Below, piece after piece: positions 2,653 through 11,530 of a DNA stretch of 32,637 nucleotides. The position numbers and the translations under genes are program-made. Below the pieces are notes generated by a model. That model did not search any database and was not told where the DNA came from. It was given only the letters and a program-made list of their open reading frames with translations. This DNA comes from a virus, in the IMG/VR virus record IMGVR_UViG_3300042892_001906, positions 1-32,637 of that record. One strand, written 5' to 3'. Positions within the stretch are counted from its first letter, which is position 1, and the number at the start of each line of letters is the position of its first letter.

Positions 2653-4238
2653 TGGCAAAGATACAGGAATTTATAAGCCCAAACATTGCGGAAAATCTCG
2701 GTAAAGAGTTACTTAGTATAGTTGGTGATAATATAAAAACTGCCGACACAGCTCTTTACGAAAGAAAGTCTTTAAATTTTCGGGATATTATTGATAATAA
2801 TTTCCCAACAATGCTTGTAGTAGATTACGCAAGTATTAAGCAAGAGTTAAAACAGTATCAAGATATTGATACTGCACTAAAGACATATATCAGCGAAACT
2901 TATAGTCCTACACAAAAAGATTATAGTATAAATAAATTCTCAGATAGCGAAATAGATTTACTGTTAAGAGCCATTAAGTATGGTATCAATAAGTTTTCTT
3001 CAACTTCTGCTACAAAAATATCTTACAAGGACTTACAAAAAAGTCTTTCAAATATTGTACAATCAGAACAGTCAAACAGTACTACAGTAGCAAGAATAAA
3101 ACAGTTATTTAGTAAAGTATATAAGCTAACTGATATTTCAACAAGCTCAGTAGAAGTATTTATATTTCCTAATTTTGCTAATCTTGGCGGATTACTTCGA
3201 GGCCCACTAGATGTTGGACTTTCCATAGCGGAAGCTGAAGCAGGAAAATCAATCGGTAATCTAGACTCTGTCGGACAAATTTTAGCTTACGGGCACACTG
3301 CAGCAGGATATGTAGACAAAGACGGCAATGCTAAGTTAAATTTTAATAGTCCAAAACTATTGGCTGTAATGTTTGACGTTATGGCTTCAGCTAGCGATAA
3401 GTCTCCAGTGGCGGCACGAGCCGCTTTAGATGCAGCTACATTTTTTGTTAATGATACAAGACAGACAGAAGTATACATTAATATTGACAAAGAATTTAGT
3501 GAGGACTTTGTAAAGACTTTTGTGTCTATTGGCGGAAATATAGTAAAGCTTGAAAACAGTTTAATAAACTCCAGACGAGGATCCGTTTTAGAGAAACGCG
3601 AAAAACGGGGCGTAAATAAGTCTGTTTTAGATAAGCTAGCAAAAGAGTTTGCAAAAGCAGATAGCTTAGTAAGTAAAAGGCTTGCTAGATATATCTTAAC
3701 GCATAAAAAATCACCTAACGTTATAGAGTATTTAACACATAGTTTAGTTAATACTTTAAAGGGTGAGCCTGTAGAAAAATACAAAAGTAAAAGTAAGCAA
3801 TCTAATACCCGTAAAGAGGGTGTTAAAAAACAAGTAAGTTCAGGCGTAATAAAAGGTAAAGCAAAATTACCCGTATTACCAAAGCCTTCTACCCAACCGC
3901 CTAAATCAGCAACAAATTTATTAAATTTAACCAGTTTAATAAATTCTCAATTACAAGATGTAATTAGCGCTAATATGGGAGACGGGTCTAGTCGTAATGT
4001 TTTAAACTATCGTACAGGCAGATTTGCTAGCAGTGTTACAGTAGAAAATATTTCTATGAGTAGACAAGGTATGATAACCGCATTTTACTCATACATGAAA
4101 AACCCGTATGCAACATTTAGTGCTGGCGGACGTCAATCAACTCCTACAAGCAGAGACCCTAAGTTACTAATTTCTAAGTCAATTAGACAAATTGCAGAGC
4201 AGGTAGTAACTAATAAATTAAGGGCAGTAGCATTATGA
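2652..4238 (+). CDS. Unrecognised head-tail protein with a gp10-like C-terminal segment
   Basis: This 528-aa protein occupies the place where siphoviruses normally encode small head-closure and gp10-like proteins (about 110-150 aa each). The first 400 residues match no family I can name; they are rich in Lys, Ser, Asn and Ile and include a very basic stretch around residues 370-400 (KSKSKQSNTRKEGVKK). The last 120 or so residues contain RTGRFASSV near 453, similar to the RTG-R-S motif of HK97 gp10-like neck proteins, followed by aromatic segments and a C-terminal helix. A role in neck or head completion is inferred from position and this motif. The frame is intact and overlaps both neighbours (TAATG before, ATGA after), arguing for translational coupling. 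Codon use is AT-rich with AGA and TTA common, unlike the capsid. Confidence 0.7.
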   Translation: MAKIQEFISPNIAENLGKELLSIVGDNIKTADTALYERKSLNFRDIIDNNFPTMLVVDYASIKQELKQYQDIDTALKTYISETYSPTQKDYSINKFSDSEIDLLLRAIKYGINKFSSTSATKISYKDLQKSLSNIVQSEQSNSTTVARIKQLFSKVYKLTDISTSSVEVFIFPNFANLGGLLRGPLDVGLSIAEAEAGKSIGNLDSVGQILAYGHTAAGYVDKDGNAKLNFNSPKLLAVMFDVMASASDKSPVAARAALDAATFFVNDTRQTEVYINIDKEFSEDFVKTFVSIGGNIVKLENSLINSRRGSVLEKREKRGVNKSVLDKLAKEFAKADSLVSKRLARYILTHKKSPNVIEYLTHSLVNTLKGEPVEKYKSKSKQSNTRKEGVKKQVSSGVIKGKAKLPVLPKPSTQPPKSATNLLNLTSLINSQLQDVISANMGDGSSRNVLNYRTGRFASSVTVENISMSRQGMITAFYSYMKNPYATFSAGGRQSTPTSRDPKLLISKSIRQIAEQVVTNKLRAVAL

Positions 4239-4675
4239 CAAGAAGAATAAGCATTGTAACAGCTTTGGCTGAAAAATTTAAAATAATTGACGGAACTGGT
4301 AGTTATAAAACAGATTTATTTAATAATAGCTATCCTAAACTGAAATTCTGGGATGAAGTACAAGATTTTCCCTGCGTATATCTTACAGCAGGCACAGAAA
4401 TGCGCGAATATTTACCCGCAGACTTCACCTGGGGATATTTAAACATTAGCGTCAAAGTTTATGTTCGCAGTGAAACCGAAGCGCAACAACAGCTCGAAAA
4501 CTTACTAGATGATTTAGAAAATGTAATCGACGCTAACCGAGTATTAGTATACGATACTACTAATAACTTCTCAACTACTGAAATACTAATTCAGTCAATA
4601 ACTACTGACGAAGGGCTCTTAGCTCCTTATGGTGTCGGTGAAATCAATCTACAGGTGCGCTACGCATTAGTATAA
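4235..4675 (+). CDS. Probable tail terminator / tail completion protein
   Basis: The 146-aa protein opens with a short helix, then KFWDEVQDFPCVYLTAGTEM and a mixed alpha/beta pattern (LNISVKVYVRSETEAQQQLENLLDDLENVID), ending with EINLQVRYALV. This layout, 'D-F-P-x-x-Y-L-x-x-G-x-E' early and a long amphipathic helix after a beta strand, fits tail terminator proteins (gpU/gp17-like) that cap the growing tail tube and join it to the head. It sits just before the tube gene, as expected. Its ATG overlaps the previous stop. The 82 bases that follow contain no terminator or convincing promoter, only AAAGGAAAG for the next gene. Confidence 0.7.
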   Translation: MTRRISIVTALAEKFKIIDGTGSYKTDLFNNSYPKLKFWDEVQDFPCVYLTAGTEMREYLPADFTWGYLNISVKVYVRSETEAQQQLENLLDDLENVIDANRVLVYDTTNNFSTTEILIQSITTDEGLLAPYGVGEINLQVRYALV

Positions 4676-4757: not shown

Positions 4758-5969
4758 ATGGCATTAAATTTAATCCGTAATAGTCGCGTATTTTTCACGA
4801 CTAATTTAACTAGTAGTAACAATGTAGCTGCTAGTGGATTTACACCCTCAAATACATTCGAGCTCCAAGTTCAAGATGGATTCTCGTTTTCACAAAACAC
4901 AGGTACTGAAACAATTACCTTAAATGAAGCAGGCACAGCACCGGTCCGCGGTCAACGCAGTTTTAATACTAGCTTGGATCCAGTAGATTGGAGTTTTGCT
5001 ACTTATATTCGCCCTACATTCGTAGAAGGTTCGTCACCTGCAACAGTAGGTACATTAGATGCTGATGACACCATCGGTGCAGAAGAATCTGTATTATGGA
5101 ACGCTTTGGCGGGAACAAGTGAAATTGGCGGAGCCAGCCCAGGGTGGGTAGCTACACCTTATAGTGGAGGTACTGTTGGATCTCCATTTTCTACAGTTGC
5201 TTTTGGTAATTCTAATGCTCACCAACTCCAAGCTTTTGGTTTAATCATTATTTTTGACGCTGTTACATACGTTATCGATAACTGTGCTGTTGATTCTGCT
5301 ACTATTGATTTTGGTTTAGATGCTATCGCTTCTTGCCAGTGGGCAGGAAAAGGTACTACAATGCGTCCTTTAGCTACTGCAGCTACTGCAACAACAACTT
5401 CTCCAGTTACATTCGGTGGTGGTTTGTCAGGTACTGCTAAATTAAAAGATACTAGTGCACGGTATATTGCTAACAAGCTGTCTACTATGTCAGTTGTTTC
5501 TGATTCAAGCAATTACGGCGGAATTGCTTCAAATACTTACACAGTAGCTTTAACTGGCGGAAGTATTAGTATTAACAATAACTTAACATACTTGACTCCA
5601 GCTAACTTAGGCGTTGTTAATCAGCCAGTTACTTATTTTACAGGTACACGAGCCATTACTTCTAGTGTAACAGCTTATTTGAAGAGTGGATCTTCTACTG
5701 ATACAGCTGCTTTGTTAAAAGATATTTTAGCTGCCGCTGCTACTAACGTAGACAATAAGTTTGCAGTAACAGTTGACTTAGGTGGTTCTACCAGCTCGAC
5801 ACGCGTTAGTTTGTCTATGCCAACAGCTATGTTGACTATTCCAACAATTGCTTCTGAACAAGTTATTTCTACTTCTATCACTATTAATCCCCAGTCCTCG
5901 ACTTCGGGCGCATATGATGTTGAAGCTAAGAATGAGCTTACAGTTAAATACTTCTCAACAGCTAACTAA
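4758..5969 (+). CDS. Major tail tube protein
   Basis: The 403-aa protein is beta-rich and of low complexity in Ser, Thr, Ala and Gly, as tube proteins are. The N-terminal region has FELQVQDGFSFSQNTGTETI, then APVRGQRSFNTSLDPVDWSF and TYIRPTF, which resembles tail tube proteins of marine and freshwater siphophages. The C-terminus alternates strands (AMLTIPTIASEQVISTSI). It lies between the tail terminator and the G/GT chaperones, the standard place for the tube subunit. It has a good ribosome binding site (AAAGGAAAG) and its own terminator, consistent with a highly expressed gene. At 403 aa it is longer than lambda gpV (246 aa), so extra surface domains are likely. Confidence 0.85.
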   Translation: MALNLIRNSRVFFTTNLTSSNNVAASGFTPSNTFELQVQDGFSFSQNTGTETITLNEAGTAPVRGQRSFNTSLDPVDWSFATYIRPTFVEGSSPATVGTLDADDTIGAEESVLWNALAGTSEIGGASPGWVATPYSGGTVGSPFSTVAFGNSNAHQLQAFGLIIIFDAVTYVIDNCAVDSATIDFGLDAIASCQWAGKGTTMRPLATAATATTTSPVTFGGGLSGTAKLKDTSARYIANKLSTMSVVSDSSNYGGIASNTYTVALTGGSISINNNLTYLTPANLGVVNQPVTYFTGTRAITSSVTAYLKSGSSTDTAALLKDILAAAATNVDNKFAVTVDLGGSTSSTRVSLSMPTAMLTIPTIASEQVISTSITINPQSSTSGAYDVEAKNELTVKYFSTAN

Positions 5970-5990
5970 ACTTTACTGTTGAATTTTCAT

Positions 5991-6022
5991 AGAGACTGGG
6001 TTGATCTCCAGTCTCTCTTTTT
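5991..6022 (+). terminator. Intrinsic terminator after tail tube gene
   Basis: The 9-bp stem AGAGACTGG (5991-5999) / CCAGTCTCT (6008-6016) closes an 8-base loop and is followed by CTTTTT. It lies 22 bases after the tube stop and 15 bases before the chaperone start. Confidence 0.88.
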
Positions 6023-6036
6023 AAACTTATTATAAA

Positions 6037-6456
6037 ATGACTACTCTTTCCCTAAAAACACTTTTAGTGCCTTCTAAATCGGTACAAGTTGAATACCCCG
6101 GATTTCCAGGTTTTGTTGTTGATTTAGCTTTCTTATCTCGTGAGACTCTTTTGAGTATTCGTAAGAAATCTACTAAAACAAGTTTTAAAAACCGTCAAGC
6201 AGCAGAAGAATTTAACGAAGATTTATTCTTACAACTATATGTTGAAAATGCTGTTAAAGGATGGTCTGGACTTAAACTGAGTTATCTTGAGCAGCTTGCT
6301 CCAGTAGACTTAACTGGACAAAGCATGGACGACGAATTAAATTATACTGCTGAAAACGCACTATACTTAATGAAAAATTCCAGTAACTTTGATGCCTTTA
6401 TTAGCGAACAGGTCACAGACCTGGGAAACTTTTCGACGACCAACTCCAGCAAGTAA
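6037..6456 (+). CDS. Tail assembly chaperone, lambda gpG-like short product
   Basis: The 139-aa protein is the unshifted product of a G/GT chaperone pair. It has the usual beta-rich N-terminal domain (VQVEYPGFPGFVVDLAFLSRETLLSIRKK) and a helical remainder. These chaperones coat the tape measure and recruit tube subunits, and are absent from the finished virion. The gene lies between tube and tape measure, as in nearly all siphoviruses. The 20 bases before ATG 6037 (6017-6036) contain no G at all, so there is no Shine-Dalgarno; the gene may rely on an AT-rich unstructured start. It contains the frameshift signal eight codons before its end. Confidence 0.9.
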   Translation: MTTLSLKTLLVPSKSVQVEYPGFPGFVVDLAFLSRETLLSIRKKSTKTSFKNRQAAEEFNEDLFLQLYVENAVKGWSGLKLSYLEQLAPVDLTGQSMDDELNYTAENALYLMKNSSNFDAFISEQVTDLGNFSTTNSSK

Positions 6457-6815
6457 ACACGCAGTTGGTTAACTATATTCAAAATATGGGTGTTGGCATG
6501 ACCAAAGACCAGTATTTTGAAATGTGCGAAATGATGGGCAATGAGCCCATAGAATCCGAAGTCCCTATAGAATTTGAAGATCTTCACCTAGAAGTTCAAC
6601 AAGCACTTAATGCCTATAGAATGTTACGAGATGAGTGGGATACCATGAATGGTCACTATCTTGGAAAGTCCTTAATAGGCGTAAAAGATGTTTTAGAAGC
6701 AACGGAAATTGAGCCAGCGGATCAGAAGTTTATAATCATGTTAATACGCATGATTGACGCTGTAAGATCAGATGAAATCAATAATAAGAAAAAGATGGAA
6801 AAGCCCGCTAACTAA
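6037..6815 (+). CDS. Tail assembly chaperone, gpGT-like frameshift fusion
   Basis: A -1 shift at GGGAAAC (6423-6429) joins residue N131 of the G frame to LFDDQLQQVNTQLVNYI and onward in the second frame, giving a 259-aa fusion ending at TAA 6813-6815. The second frame is open from 6405, so it overlaps the end of G through the slip site. It has no good start of its own; the first possible one is TTG at 6465 without a Shine-Dalgarno. Its sequence (VQQALNAYRMLRDEWDTM..., GVKDVLEATEI) looks like the T half of siphovirus chaperones, which contacts the tube subunit while the G half binds the tape measure. Efficiency of shifting cannot be read from sequence. Confidence 0.88.
6423..6469 (+). promoter_or_regulatory. 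Programmed -1 frameshift signal with stem-loop
   Basis: The heptamer G GGA AAC is in the correct phase (X XXY YYZ); lambda uses GGGAAAG. After a 9-base spacer, ACCAACT (6439-6445) pairs perfectly with AGTTGGT (6463-6469) around a 17-base loop that contains the G stop codon. This is the expected spacing for a stimulatory structure. Confidence 0.9.
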
Positions 6816-6834
6816 AAATTGGCGGGCTTTTTTA
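6799..6834 (+). terminator. Intrinsic terminator after chaperone genes
   Basis: AAGCCCGCTAA (6801-6811) pairs with TTGGCGGGCTT (6819-6829 or nearby, one T-G wobble) around a short A-rich loop, followed by a run of T. The left arm overlaps the last codons of the GT product. Confidence 0.9.
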
Positions 6835-6852
6835 CGTTAAAAATTTTTTGGT

Positions 6853-6881
6853 TTGACAAAAGTGTGGTTGCATGTTATAAT
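6853..6881 (+). promoter_or_regulatory. Perfect sigma70-type promoter before tape measure gene
   Basis: TTGACA (6853-6858), a 17-base spacer and TATAAT (6876-6881) match consensus exactly; TG at 6873-6874 adds an extended -10. Transcription should begin near 6888, leaving a leader of about 50 bases with AGAGGAG before ATG 6938. It directly follows a terminator whose T-tract gives AT-rich DNA upstream of the -35. Confidence 0.9.
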
Positions 6882-6937
6882 GTACTCTAGTCAAATTATC
6901 AAAAAGTTTTGGCCACCAACCCTAAAGAGGAGTACAG

Positions 6938-9900
6938 ATGGCGACAAATCAAGTAAATATAAACCTAAGCTTACAGGACCAGTCACGCAGTATTAAACAG
7001 CGTACTGATGAAGTCAAAGGTTTAAATAAAGAATTACAAAAAGCACAGACGCTTGCTACAGGCACTAGAACTGGTAGTGCAGCCGTTTCTGCTAGCTATA
7101 GTGCAGCAGGCCAGAATATTGAGTATGGGCGTGCTCGTGGCTCAATGGGTTCTACAGGCGCAGCGGGACGGGACTTTGCAAATCAAGCGCAAGGTCTTGG
7201 TGGATTAGTGCGTTTATACGCTACATATGCTGCTAACGTATTTGCTGTAAGCGCTGCATTTAGTGCGCTTAGTCAAGCTATGAATACCTCAATGATGGTT
7301 CGAGGCTTAGACCAATTAGGTGCTGCAAGTGGTTTAGCATTAGGTGGCATAGCAAAACAATTTGCTAATGCAAGCGAAGGAGCTATTAGCTTTCGGGAAG
7401 CTATGGAAGCCACGGCAAAAGCAACTTCTAGTGGCTTAAGTAAAAAACAATTCATGGAATTAGGCACAGTAGCCAAAGGTGCTAGCCAAGCGCTTGGTGT
7501 CAATATGTCCGACGCTGTTAGTCGTTTAACTCGTGGTATTACTAAATTAGAACCTGAATTATTAGACGAACTTGGTATTTTTACCAAAGTTGGTAAAGCC
7601 TCAGAAGACTATGCACGTAGCGTGGGTAAGAGTGTAGATAGCTTAACAGATTTTGAAAAACGTCAAGCGTTTGCAAATGCAGTGTTAGCAGAAGGTCGCC
7701 AAAAGTTTGGCGAAATCGCATCAGAAACAAATGTTTACGATAAATTATTGGCTAACCTAAAAAACGTAGCACAAGAAATTTTAAGTACAATAAATACTGT
7801 AGTTGCACCAATAGCAAAAATATTTGCTAATAGTAGCGAGCTGATAGGATTAGCAATAGGCGTTATTGCTTTAAAAATCACAAAACAAGCTTTGCCTGCT
7901 TTAGCAAGTTGGAGAGAAGGCTTAACCGCAGCAGCAACTGACGCAGCAAAAAGCGCCCAAGATATTAATACTAGTTTTGGTGAAGCTTTTGTTGAGCGTG
8001 CACAACAACGTGCAAAAATACCTCAGTTACAACAACAAGAAAATGCGGAAAAATTAGCGTATACTCAAAGAGCAAAACAATTTTTAACTGAAGAAAATCA
8101 GCTTAAAAAGAATAGTGCATTGTCCCAAACAATAGCTTCTGGTCAAATAATGACTACTAGGCAGCTAGGTGCTCTTCAAGCAGAGATTACTAAAAAACAG
8201 AACGATACTAATGCAGCTACACAAAAACACGTAGAAGGTCTTAAAGCCGTACAGTCAATGCAATTACAGATGCGTAAAACTGCGCAAGATATTGTAGCTG
8301 CCAATGACTTAGTCCAAGAACAAGCAAACACAAGATCTAGATATTTAAGCGAAGAATGGCAGCGAGAAAAAATTGTCCAACAAGAACGCGCAAAAGCAGC
8401 CAGACTTACTTTACTAGCCGGAGTAGGCGAACGTGTGTCCAAAGAAGGCCTAGTTGACGGGTTTAAAGGATTCTATAGTGATACTATGGCTAGCAAAGAT
8501 CTAGGCAGAGTTAATAAGTTTAGAACAATAACAACAGGAGCCTTTGTAGCCGTAGGGCAAGCTGCATCTATTTTAGGAAGATCACTTAGTGGTGCTTTAA
8601 TATATTTAGAAATTGCAGTAGCAGTGTTTGGGATTTTAAACTTTGCTTTTTCAAAAAATGGTAAAGAAGCAGATGCTCTTAAATCCAGTATTGACAGTTT
8701 GTCTGAGTCTACTAAAACCGCCATTAATGTTACAGAAAAATTTGGAGACACATTAACTGTTGAAAGTATAAATGCAAAAGCAAATGCTTTTGGAAATTTA
8801 GCTGATGATATAAATACAGCTACTACTAATTTGTTAAAAGCTGATGCACGTGCAAGCGGTTTTGATAAATTTATAGATGGTTTTAAGACTATTTGGGGCG
8901 GAGATCTTCGCACACAGTTTACTAAGGGATTTACAGAGAGTATTAATGCAGCTATTAAAACAGCCCCAGCAGGTGAGATCAGAGATAATTTAGAGAAAAA
9001 ATTAATAAACAGTTTGGGCACTTTAGATATTGAAAAAGGTCTTGATTTAGTACCTACTGATAAAGTAGTTGAAAAAGCCAGAGAAATTAGTAAAATTTTA
9101 TCTGAGTCAGACAAAATCTTAAAAGCCAGTCAAGCTGTTACACAAGAAGTAGTTGTAACATCAAAAGCTACAAGTGAAGCTTTTTTAACTTTTTCTAACG
9201 CTGTATATGGACAAAGCCCCTTACAAACATTTTTAAATACTAGTGTTAAAGGGTTGTTTGCCCTAAAGAAAGCTTTTGAAGATACTTTGGGTAGTGCTGC
9301 AGAATTTCAAAAAGTATTGGCAGGTACTGCTAATTTACAATTTTTACCCAGTTCAGCAGTCACTACTATACAGGCAGTAAGCTCACGATTTCAGACAATA
9401 AGGCAAGAGCAGAATACCGCACAAGTAGGTTTAAAAGCCACTGAAGTTGCTTTACAAAAAGTTAGATCTAAATTCTTGTATGGAACACGTACAGACGAAG
9501 GCTTAAAGTTAGAAGTAAACGAAACAGCATTACTTGCCTCTATAGATAGATATAAACAAGTTATTAATAGAACCACCACTGAAATAGCAGGCTTAGGAAA
9601 ACAAGTAGCACAAGCTTTAGCAGAATCAAGCACACAGGCCTTAGATAATATACTGCGCGAGTTTAAACTAAAAGAGAAGCAAATAAGGATTAATACCCAA
9701 CAACAAGTATTAGCTTCTATACCTGTTAAAACAGAGGAATCTATTAAAGAAGCAACTAGACTTGCTATAGCTAGTATAGATGTGGAGATGCAGTTACAAA
9801 AATCTCAACAAACTTTGGTAAATTCTATTGATGCGTTAAAAGCTTCAATAGATGTTCGTAATGCACAAGAAAATTTAGCGGGTATAAGTTCAGGAGCATT

Positions 9901-11530
9901 TAGGGGAGATAGTGATGGTGTTAATAACAGAGCACAAGCTATAGCCCTGGCCCAGGCCGACTTAGAGTCTAAACAACGTATTCAACGAGTACTAGAAACA
10001 TCTAATATTAGCGGAATAACTAAAGAAGATCGTCAAGATCCTGCAATACAACGACTCTTACAAAATAAGCAAGCAGCCTCAGGATTTGAAGTTACCGCCC
10101 AAGAAAAGCGTAAACTTGCAAGGCTTAAGGAAGCTAATGATTTAGCAGACGTATTTTTTGCAAATTCCAAACAGGCATTAGATTATGAAATTAAGATTCG
10201 TCAAGCGAAATTTGAGGAACTAAAGCTTACTGCCGGAGTTGTAGGCAATGAAGTTGAAACAAAGAAAGCAGAAGAAAAGTATTTAAAAGACATACAACCA
10301 TTTCAGCGCGCTTTAGATATGTTGCCAGCAGCACAACAAACTGCTCAAACAATTAATGCACAAAAATTTGGTGTTCCTGCAGCGATTGCCGCTAGCGTAA
10401 CAAGTAAAATTGGTGCAGTAGAGGCCCAAAGAGCTGAAGTCGCTGGAACAAAAGCCACCACTGAAGTTACTGGATCAGAAAGAAACAGTGTATTAGCGCA
10501 AGCTAGACAATTTACTGCTGATCTTACTGTACAAGAAGAACTTAGGGCTGCTGCTGCTACAAATACTTTTAATATACAAAAAGAAGGTATTGCAGCTTCA
10601 AGAGAGCAATTAAGTTATGCACAAACAGTCGGGGCGTTAACCCAACAAGAAATTGCAGCAAAAACTAGATTACTTTCTATTGAAGAAGCAGAAATAGAAA
10701 GACGGCAAAAATTAGCCGAAATAGACAAGCAGCGTTTCCTAGAGTCTTTAGCTTATTCTGATAAACTTGCAGAAGCAGGCTATATAGAGACAGATGAGTT
10801 AAAACAACAGTTAGCTTTAATTAATGCAAAAGCTACATTTGGTACTGCAGCAGCTGAAAGAGAGTATCAAGCTAGACTTAAAACCGCAGACATTACCGCA
10901 TCTTTAGCATCCAAACAAATGCAATATGAAACTGTATTTAAAAATAGTTTTGAAGGCATGGCAGATGCAATAGTTGAGTTTGCTAAAACTGGTAAATTAA
11001 GTTTCAAAGACTTAACTAACACAATGCTTACAGAACTGTTACGTATTGAATTACGTATGCAAATGTCACAAATCTGGTCAGCAATACGACCTGGTTTTGG
11101 CAACATATTTACATCTATATTTGGAAGTGCACAAGGTTCTGTGTACAACGATGGCGGAGGCTTGCAGAAGTTTGGCAAAGGCGGAATGTTTACTAATTCG
11201 ATTGTAGACTCACCAACTTTATTCAAGTTTGCCAAAGGCACTGGAGTAATGGGCGAAGCAGGACCAGAAGCTATTATGCCTTTAAAACGCGATAGCAGTG
11301 GTAATTTAGGTGTTCGTTCAACCAACAGTGGCAGCAATGTTGAAGTTGTAGTTATTAACAATACTGGCGAAAAAGCCGAAACTCGTGAAACCACAGACTC
11401 ACGTGGTAACCGTAAAGTAGAAGTAATGATTGGTGATATGACTGCAGGAGAGATTTCTAGAGCAGGTAGTGCTTCACAAAAATCAATTCGTTCTACATTT
11501 GGTATTCAGCCACAATTGATTAGGAGATAA
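6938..11530 (+). CDS. Tail tape measure protein
   Basis: At 1530 aa this is the longest gene. It sets tail length and is carried in the tube lumen; at about 0.15 nm per residue it predicts roughly 230 nm. The N-terminal part is a coiled coil (QRTDEVKGLNKELQKAQ). Hydrophobic segments lie near residues 91-118, 301-325 and 553-575, as in tape measures that insert into the host membrane. A long helical region rich in Gln, Ala and Lys follows. Near 1330-1380 is FEGMADAIVEFAKTGKLSF, like the lambda H C-terminal region, and near 1436 is the typical VMGEAGPEAIMPLKRDSSG. AGAGGAG precedes the start. The gene is driven by its own strong promoter and followed by AGGAG and the next start three bases past the stop. 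Confidence 0.95.
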   Translation: MATNQVNINLSLQDQSRSIKQRTDEVKGLNKELQKAQTLATGTRTGSAAVSASYSAAGQNIEYGRARGSMGSTGAAGRDFANQAQGLGGLVRLYATYAANVFAVSAAFSALSQAMNTSMMVRGLDQLGAASGLALGGIAKQFANASEGAISFREAMEATAKATSSGLSKKQFMELGTVAKGASQALGVNMSDAVSRLTRGITKLEPELLDELGIFTKVGKASEDYARSVGKSVDSLTDFEKRQAFANAVLAEGRQKFGEIASETNVYDKLLANLKNVAQEILSTINTVVAPIAKIFANSSELIGLAIGVIALKITKQALPALASWREGLTAAATDAAKSAQDINTSFGEAFVERAQQRAKIPQLQQQENAEKLAYTQRAKQFLTEENQLKKNSALSQTIASGQIMTTRQLGALQAEITKKQNDTNAATQKHVEGLKAVQSMQLQMRKTAQDIVAANDLVQEQANTRSRYLSEEWQREKIVQQERAKAARLTLLAGVGERVSKEGLVDGFKGFYSDTMASKDLGRVNKFRTITTGAFVAVGQAASILGRSLSGALIYLEIAVAVFGILNFAFSKNGKEADALKSSIDSLSESTKTAINVTEKFGDTLTVESINAKANAFGNLADDINTATTNLLKADARASGFDKFIDGFKTIWGGDLRTQFTKGFTESINAAIKTAPAGEIRDNLEKKLINSLGTLDIEKGLDLVPTDKVVEKAREISKILSESDKILKASQAVTQEVVVTSKATSEAFLTFSNAVYGQSPLQTFLNTSVKGLFALKKAFEDTLGSAAEFQKVLAGTANLQFLPSSAVTTIQAVSSRFQTIRQEQNTAQVGLKATEVALQKVRSKFLYGTRTDEGLKLEVNETALLASIDRYKQVINRTTTEIAGLGKQVAQALAESSTQALDNILREFKLKEKQIRINTQQQVLASIPVKTEESIKEATRLAIASIDVEMQLQKSQQTLVNSIDALKASIDVRNAQENLAGISSGAFRGDSDGVNNRAQAIALAQADLESKQRIQRVLETSNISGITKEDRQDPAIQRLLQNKQAASGFEVTAQEKRKLARLKEANDLADVFFANSKQALDYEIKIRQAKFEELKLTAGVVGNEVETKKAEEKYLKDIQPFQRALDMLPAAQQTAQTINAQKFGVPAAIAASVTSKIGAVEAQRAEVAGTKATTEVTGSERNSVLAQARQFTADLTVQEELRAAAATNTFNIQKEGIAASREQLSYAQTVGALTQQEIAAKTRLLSIEEAEIERRQKLAEIDKQRFLESLAYSDKLAEAGYIETDELKQQLALINAKATFGTAAAEREYQARLKTADITASLASKQMQYETVFKNSFEGMADAIVEFAKTGKLSFKDLTNTMLTELLRIELRMQMSQIWSAIRPGFGNIFTSIFGSAQGSVYNDGGGLQKFGKGGMFTNSIVDSPTLFKFAKGTGVMGEAGPEAIMPLKRDSSGNLGVRSTNSGSNVEVVVINNTGEKAETRETTDSRGNRKVEVMIGDMTAGEISRAGSASQKSIRSTFGIQPQLIRR

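Follow-up and report, generated by a model that had tools for sequence, protein, structure and literature searches.

A predicted −1 frameshift in the tail assembly chaperone genes of a T5-related phage and a putative +1 site in its T5-like relatives

We have analysed a stretch of DNA of 32,637 bases, the virus record IMGVR_UViG_3300042892_001906 of IMG/VR, which we will call the window. Judging from its sequence, positions 6037–6815 are the tail assembly chaperone gene pair of a siphophage related to T5: an upstream gene, G, and a downstream part, T, which lies in the −1 frame. The best reading of this region, to which we give a probability of about 0.92, is a −1 frameshift of the G/GT type of phage lambda, predicted to take place on the heptamer GGGAAAC near the end of G. 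In the Demerecviridae, T5 included, it is seemingly a +1 slip, at UUU_CGN, that links the same pair. Comparison of the two groups suggests that one family of chaperones has probably switched the direction of its frameshift: −1 at GGGAAAC or AAAUUUU in the lineage of the window, +1 by slipping of the P-site Phe-tRNA on UUU_CGN in the Demerecviridae.

The slip site and its conservation

The zero-frame codons CTG GGA AAC TTT set GGGAAAC in the −1 phase, and the −1 frame runs without a stop between 6405 and 6815. An earlier note on this DNA had described here a complete −1 cassette: a heptamer in phase, a spacer of 9 nucleotides (nt), a stem of 7 base pairs (bp) and the zero-frame stop in its loop. 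All the coordinates hold on direct reading (Table 1), and a closing G-U pair (6438/6470) can be added to the seven Watson-Crick pairs. GGGAAAC is the only in-phase heptamer of the form XXXYYYZ in the whole of G. Its count in the window is ordinary, 3 against 2.4 expected. When the codons of G were shuffled 20,000 times, 14% of the shuffles had an in-phase XXXYYYZ within the last 17 codons; a heptamer followed, after a spacer of 5–10 nt, by a perfect stem of 7 bp or more was found in 0.12%. The case for the slip site is carried by its conservation.

Relatives were collected by similarity of the G protein and not by the motif. The collection contains four sets from IMG/VR (the best 80 each of 295, 220, 256 and 463 relatives), one extra locus, 21 stretches from named phages, and the window with its own copy. 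No usable pattern came from the full set of 15 divergent G proteins; a narrower alignment worked. A G match was present in 900 phage records, and 20 of those read have an intact site. The 332 stretches reduce to 169 distinct sites of 120 nt; many stretches come from the same contigs and only distinct sites are counted. The frame of T was assigned by the profile location of T. It is −1 in 126 sites and +1 in 41, and two sites were assigned to neither: in one (L138) T is truncated and GGGAAAC is present, in the other (Aeromonas phage AhSzq-1) there are stops around the gene.

An in-phase XXXYYYZ is present at all 126 distinct −1 sites: 113 have GGGAAAC and 13 have AAATTTT (A_AAU_UUU). In the first set of relatives (the best 80 of 295) GGGAAAC is in phase in 80 out of 80. 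A tree of 99 representatives, taken from 327 usable stretches, requires five changes among the three motif classes, one of them being the change of direction. Thus the −1 relation has persisted although one tandem-slip heptamer gave way to another on more than one occasion; within the −1 group it is the class of motif which is conserved and not its letters.

From this sequence anatomy and its conservation, together with the coding constraint on the T frame and the family matches described below, we infer the following process. Most ribosomes would make gpG, 139 amino acids (aa) long, terminating at 6456. In a minority the Gly-tRNA and the Asn-tRNA on GGA AAC would slip back together onto GGG AAA, and these ribosomes would continue with ...LGN-LFDDQ..., the product being a gpGT fusion of 259 aa (131 + 128). 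The slip rate would be raised by the stem at 6438–6470 and perhaps also by pairing of CAGGU (6409–6413) with 16S rRNA. If lambda is a guide, the tape measure protein may be coated by many gpG and few gpGT, and the T part would recruit the major tail protein.

Coding in the T frame and alternative readings

Several observations weigh against this reading. The T frame contains an ATG at 6498 which could start a separate T protein; this codon is found in 117 of the 126 distinct GGGAAAC sequences. The fold energy is modest: it is −9.1 kcal/mol for 6434–6474, equalled by 9 of 200 shuffles, and has a z value of −0.2 for 6423–6500. No stem of at least 5 bp is found near the heptamer in 18 of 119 distinct sites, and the stem arms are also under coding constraint. 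In Escherichia coli A_AAA_AAC is described as far less shift-prone than A_AAA_AAG (PMC5009743), which makes the efficiency of an AAC site in the host of the window uncertain. The coding evidence supports the frameshift, though it has a weak side. From the zero-frame stop to ATG 6498 the synonymous fraction in the T frame is 0.634, with 0.242 expected, and in the other two frames 0.219 and 0.202, with 0.258 and 0.259 expected (93 sequences of the main layout); the pair counts behind these fractions are not independent, but the T frame stands far apart from the two other frames read from the same letters.

The alternative which survives best, though we consider it improbable, is that T is a separate protein made by reinitiation after the stop at 6456, starting at ATG 6498 (or ATG 6486 or TTG 6465), with no frameshift. 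The earlier note saw no credible start in the shifted frame. This was too strong, as these three starts lie in frame and ATG 6498 is widely conserved. In records of T5-like phages, too, the start of the second chaperone is often placed at an internal ATG (T5.142, bombadil, 1586). However, the region between the zero-frame stop and ATG 6498 evolves as T-frame protein, and a separate T leaves the heptamer found at every −1 site unexplained. Only 10 of the 73 −1 representatives having the conserved ATG show a Shine-Dalgarno-like match of at least 4 nt before it. In 32 of the 117 sequences with this ATG there is no ATG, GTG or TTG between the heptamer and it. A free T may coexist with the fusion, but to judge from the substitution pattern translation must also run upstream of ATG 6498.

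It is less probable still that the shift is a +2 slip immediately past the heptamer, in which Phe-tRNA would move from UUU to UUC on UUUUC (6430–6434), a relic of a T5-type +1 site. The letters TTTTC, which resemble the TTTC of T5-like phages, follow GGGAAAC in 109 of 113 sites, but they are missing in the other 4 and in 8 of the 13 AAATTTT sites, where the heptamer is kept. Slips of +2 are not known to be an established mechanism in phages. A single broken gene, either a pseudogene or a sequencing artefact, has nothing in its favour beyond the break itself, and is refuted by conservation: the same break recurs at 126 distinct sites, which come from many contigs, and the T side is under purifying selection.

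The stem-loop and other possible stimulators

The exact geometry of the window stem, 8 bp with a loop of 17 nt, is found in 50 of 119 distinct sites. Other relatives have different stems, as is the case for GAGCAGC/GCTGCTC in the L079 group, and the heptamer is kept in relatives whose stem is absent. In 79 aligned sequences the proportion of paired cells is 0.823, compared with a mean of 0.767 and a maximum of 0.790 in 500 column shuffles; slid versions of the stem give 0.07–0.52. The pairing lies above all column shuffles, yet the geometry varies, so that the stem is real in its own clade and is not a general feature. The stem-loop is restricted to subclades. A pseudoknot between the loop and the bases after 6469, which the earlier note had proposed, is rejected as unsupported: the longest match has 6 nt (6446–6451 with 6491–6496) and is equalled in 33% of shuffles. 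A search of Rfam over 5900–7000 gave 10 matches at E up to 1, none of them at its gathering score.

Upstream of the heptamer there is a sequence CAGGT which is a plausible Shine-Dalgarno-like stimulator, by analogy with dnaX, where such a 5' element stimulates frameshifting. In 108 distinct GGGAAAC sites CAG accounts for 82 of the 104 Gln codons at this position, whereas its share of the 585 Gln codons in other parts of these genes is 0.31. CAG is also found at this position in 10 of the 13 AAATTTT sites. Counts of 108/108 for GGA, AAC and Leu NNG in these sites are circular, since the sites were chosen by GGGAAAC, and were not used. The same letters can form a 5' hairpin, CAGGUC-ACA-GACCUG (6409–6423), which abuts the heptamer. 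Within it GAC is favoured, in 94 of 105 Asp codons against a background of 0.35. However, the 10 AAATTTT sites which retain CAG have GAT instead of GAC; for this reason a Shine-Dalgarno-like role of CAGGT appears preferable to the hairpin.

The T5-like relatives

In the Demerecviridae the organization of the pair is different. The +1 frame holds T in 20 named T5-like phages whose site is intact, and also in further loci from IMG/VR. Zero-frame TTT CGN stands at the takeover by the +1 frame in all 41 distinct +1 sites: 24 of them are ACT TTT CGT and the other 17 are spread over ten further combinations. The −1 frame at these loci never stays open beyond 35 codons, and no −1 heptamer was found in position at the T5-like sites. 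In T5 (AY543070) the sequence at the junction is HLDTF followed by VAQKRKELLDAVADFADKCIKSSASKMTKQQY, 26 codons upstream of the annotated ATG of T5.142. From the site to the annotated ATG the synonymous fraction in the +1 frame is 0.922, with 0.244 expected, and in the other frames 0.042 and 0.036 (28 sequences).

The Phe codon is TTT in 18 of 18 representatives, although TTT is only 0.46 of the 114 Phe codons in the same genes, where TTC is slightly commoner. A UUU codon is what the tRNA would require in order to slip to UUC. The codon preceding TTT is variable, which makes the event look more like the slip of a single tRNA than a tandem slip. The window itself is not of the T5 type: its T is in the −1 frame, and TTT TCG is found instead of TTT CGN. 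At the junction the −1 group has mostly AAC TTT TCN and the +1 group NNN TTT CGN, so that in effect one base separates the frames.

The change of direction occurs once on the tree, across a branch with an SH-aLRT (Shimodaira–Hasegawa-like approximate likelihood ratio test) support of 100; the branches near it are long and the tree is unrooted, so that gain and loss are not separable.

The loci with a putative +1 site UUU_CGN are L244 (T5), L082–L094, L245–L247 and L249–L251, none of which is annotated as joined. None of the 21 named regions annotates the chaperone pair as joined; in KEY, Kpn13-P1 and AAS21 the second chaperone is annotated as overlapping G. In its passage on these phages, a genome paper of 2018 gives T5 and Sugarland without a predicted frameshift signal (PMC6256483). 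We have found no prior report of a T5-like +1 site or of a switch of direction in the papers searched, although one may be present in subscription journals.

Some records of this group have peculiarities. All six Vibrio phage regions read (L086, L090, L094, L246, L247, L250) have an extra open reading frame (ORF), about 250 aa long, which separates T from the tape measure gene; T5.141 has the same location in T5. The chaperone region of Aeromonas phage AhSzq-1 (L248, MG676224.1) has stops in all forward frames and no annotated genes, with TTTCGA visible; these are probably sequence errors. T5-like chaperones are also found in records labelled as a Corynebacterium phage (41 kb) and a Klebsiella phage of Straboviridae (261 kb), which are possibly mislabelled or mixed assemblies.

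Gene order and protein families

The features of the window are collected in Table 1. The G/T pair lies directly between the gene for the major tail protein and the tape measure gene.

Table 1. Features of the chaperone region and neighbouring tail genes in the window
Feature	Position	Strand	Evidence or remark
Tail terminator	4235–4675		
Major tail protein	4758–5969		phrog_3575, E 8.5e-65
G-like tail assembly chaperone, zero frame, 139 aa	6037–6456	+	ORF; phrog_313, E 4.8e-14; AlphaFold model
CAGGT, Shine-Dalgarno-like, 9 nt 5' of the heptamer; possible stimulator	6409–6413	+	
Slippery heptamer G_GGA_AAC, −1 phase	6423–6429	+	Direct reading; conservation
T-like extension after the predicted −1 shift, 128 aa then stop	6429–6815	+	phrog_3914, E 9.1e-12; coding signature upstream of ATG 6498
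Spacer, 9 nt	6430–6438	+	Direct reading
Stem, 5' arm ACCAACT	6439–6445	+	Extendable by a G-U pair, G6438 with U6470
Loop, 17 nt	6446–6462	+	
Zero-frame stop TAA, inside the loop	6454–6456	+	Direct reading
Stem, 3' arm AGTTGGT	6463–6469	+	Paired-cell test in relatives
Conserved in-frame ATG, candidate internal start of T (alternative reading)	6498–6500	+	
Tape measure protein	6938–11530		phrog_3779, E 4.8e-47

Both families matched by G and T are annotated as tail assembly chaperones, and the shifted frame does continue with chaperone-like sequence, as the earlier note had suggested. Its interpretation as a −1 frameshift of tail chaperones is supported by the position of the genes, their families, the conserved heptamer and the coding of the T frame. 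No match above the cut-off was found for G and T in Pfam, nor any match in NCBIfam. The AlphaFold model of G, built with 44 sequences, has a pLDDT (predicted local distance difference test) of 87.5. Foldseek found no match to this model with E below 0.8. Among 912 chains compared with it by VIA-align the best is YqbN (3klu; Z 6.5, root mean square deviation 5.1, 97 residues aligned) and the second is the tail assembly chaperone of HK97 (2ob9; Z 5.5, deviation 6.2, 99 aligned), while the third has a Z of 2.8. For a predicted model, these two top chains are consistent with the family assignment, short of proof.

Other features are apparent in the neighbourhood. A terminator-like hairpin is found at 5991–6016, 5' of G, and a GC-rich stem with a run of T at about 6803–6832, 3' of T, as read from the letters. 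Directly 5' of the tape measure gene there is a consensus sigma-70 promoter (6853–6881) with 12 of 12 matches, TTGACA-17-TATAAT, and TG before the −10 element. The prohead protease (Peptidase_S78) and the HK97-type capsid protein form a single ORF of 646 aa (60–2000), whereas in T5 they are encoded by separate genes.

Comparison with known systems

The heptamer of lambda is reportedly GGGAAAG. That of the window ends in C, so that the difference seen in the earlier note is real, but it is not unusual: GGGAAAC is described at the tail chaperones of Caulobacter phage Colossus (PMC3556154), Burkholderia phage KL1 (PMC3483164) and the haloarchaeal virus HCTV-1 (reviewed in PMC5009743). To go by these published descriptions, the heptamer is identical to that of the window and the gene is of the same kind; in KL1, unlike the window, the slip site lies directly before the stop codon. 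The similarity with gpG/gpGT of lambda consists in the G_GGA_AA- class of heptamer and the presence of G and T parts (PMC5009743). It is a similarity of arrangement: the proteins of the window belong to phrog_313 and phrog_3914, without demonstrated sequence homology to G and T of lambda, and the window stem has the stop in its loop. As −1 shifts in tail chaperones are described as widely conserved (PMC5009743) and GGGAAAC has also been published, the cassette of the window is not new in kind.

The T5-like phages are closer. Their G is homologous (tblastn E from 2e-22 to 1e-10 in 60 listed records), the pair T5.143/T5.142 is homologous, with T homologous by alignment, and the order before the tape measure gene is the same. 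They differ in having T in the +1 frame after UUU_CGN and an extra minor tail gene upstream.

The putative sites NNN_UUU_CGN of the T5-like group resemble that of PA-X in influenza A, where the +1 site UCC_UUU_CGU was found by mass spectrometry (PMC3498833). Pectobacterium phage DU_PP_V has the same nine letters, TCC TTT CGT. The influenza study prefers a P-site slip on UUU_C as the mechanism, and it anticipated a whole class of sites of this kind (PMC3498833). PA-X belongs to an animal virus and is an unrelated protein, and the comparison applies to the T5-like group only and not to the window.

Significance

The cassette of the window is a textbook −1 site in a lineage of uncultured phages and helps in its annotation; of greater weight is the comparison with T5. 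In this model phage the annotation starts the second chaperone at an internal ATG, and a conserved +1 site UUU_CGN would explain how the long chaperone is made. If this is true, T5, described in print as lacking a signal, would have had a frameshift site all along. Bacteriophages would then be natural users of the UUU_C class of +1 sites which was foreseen from an animal virus, and the direction of a frameshift could flip while its position and both products stay.
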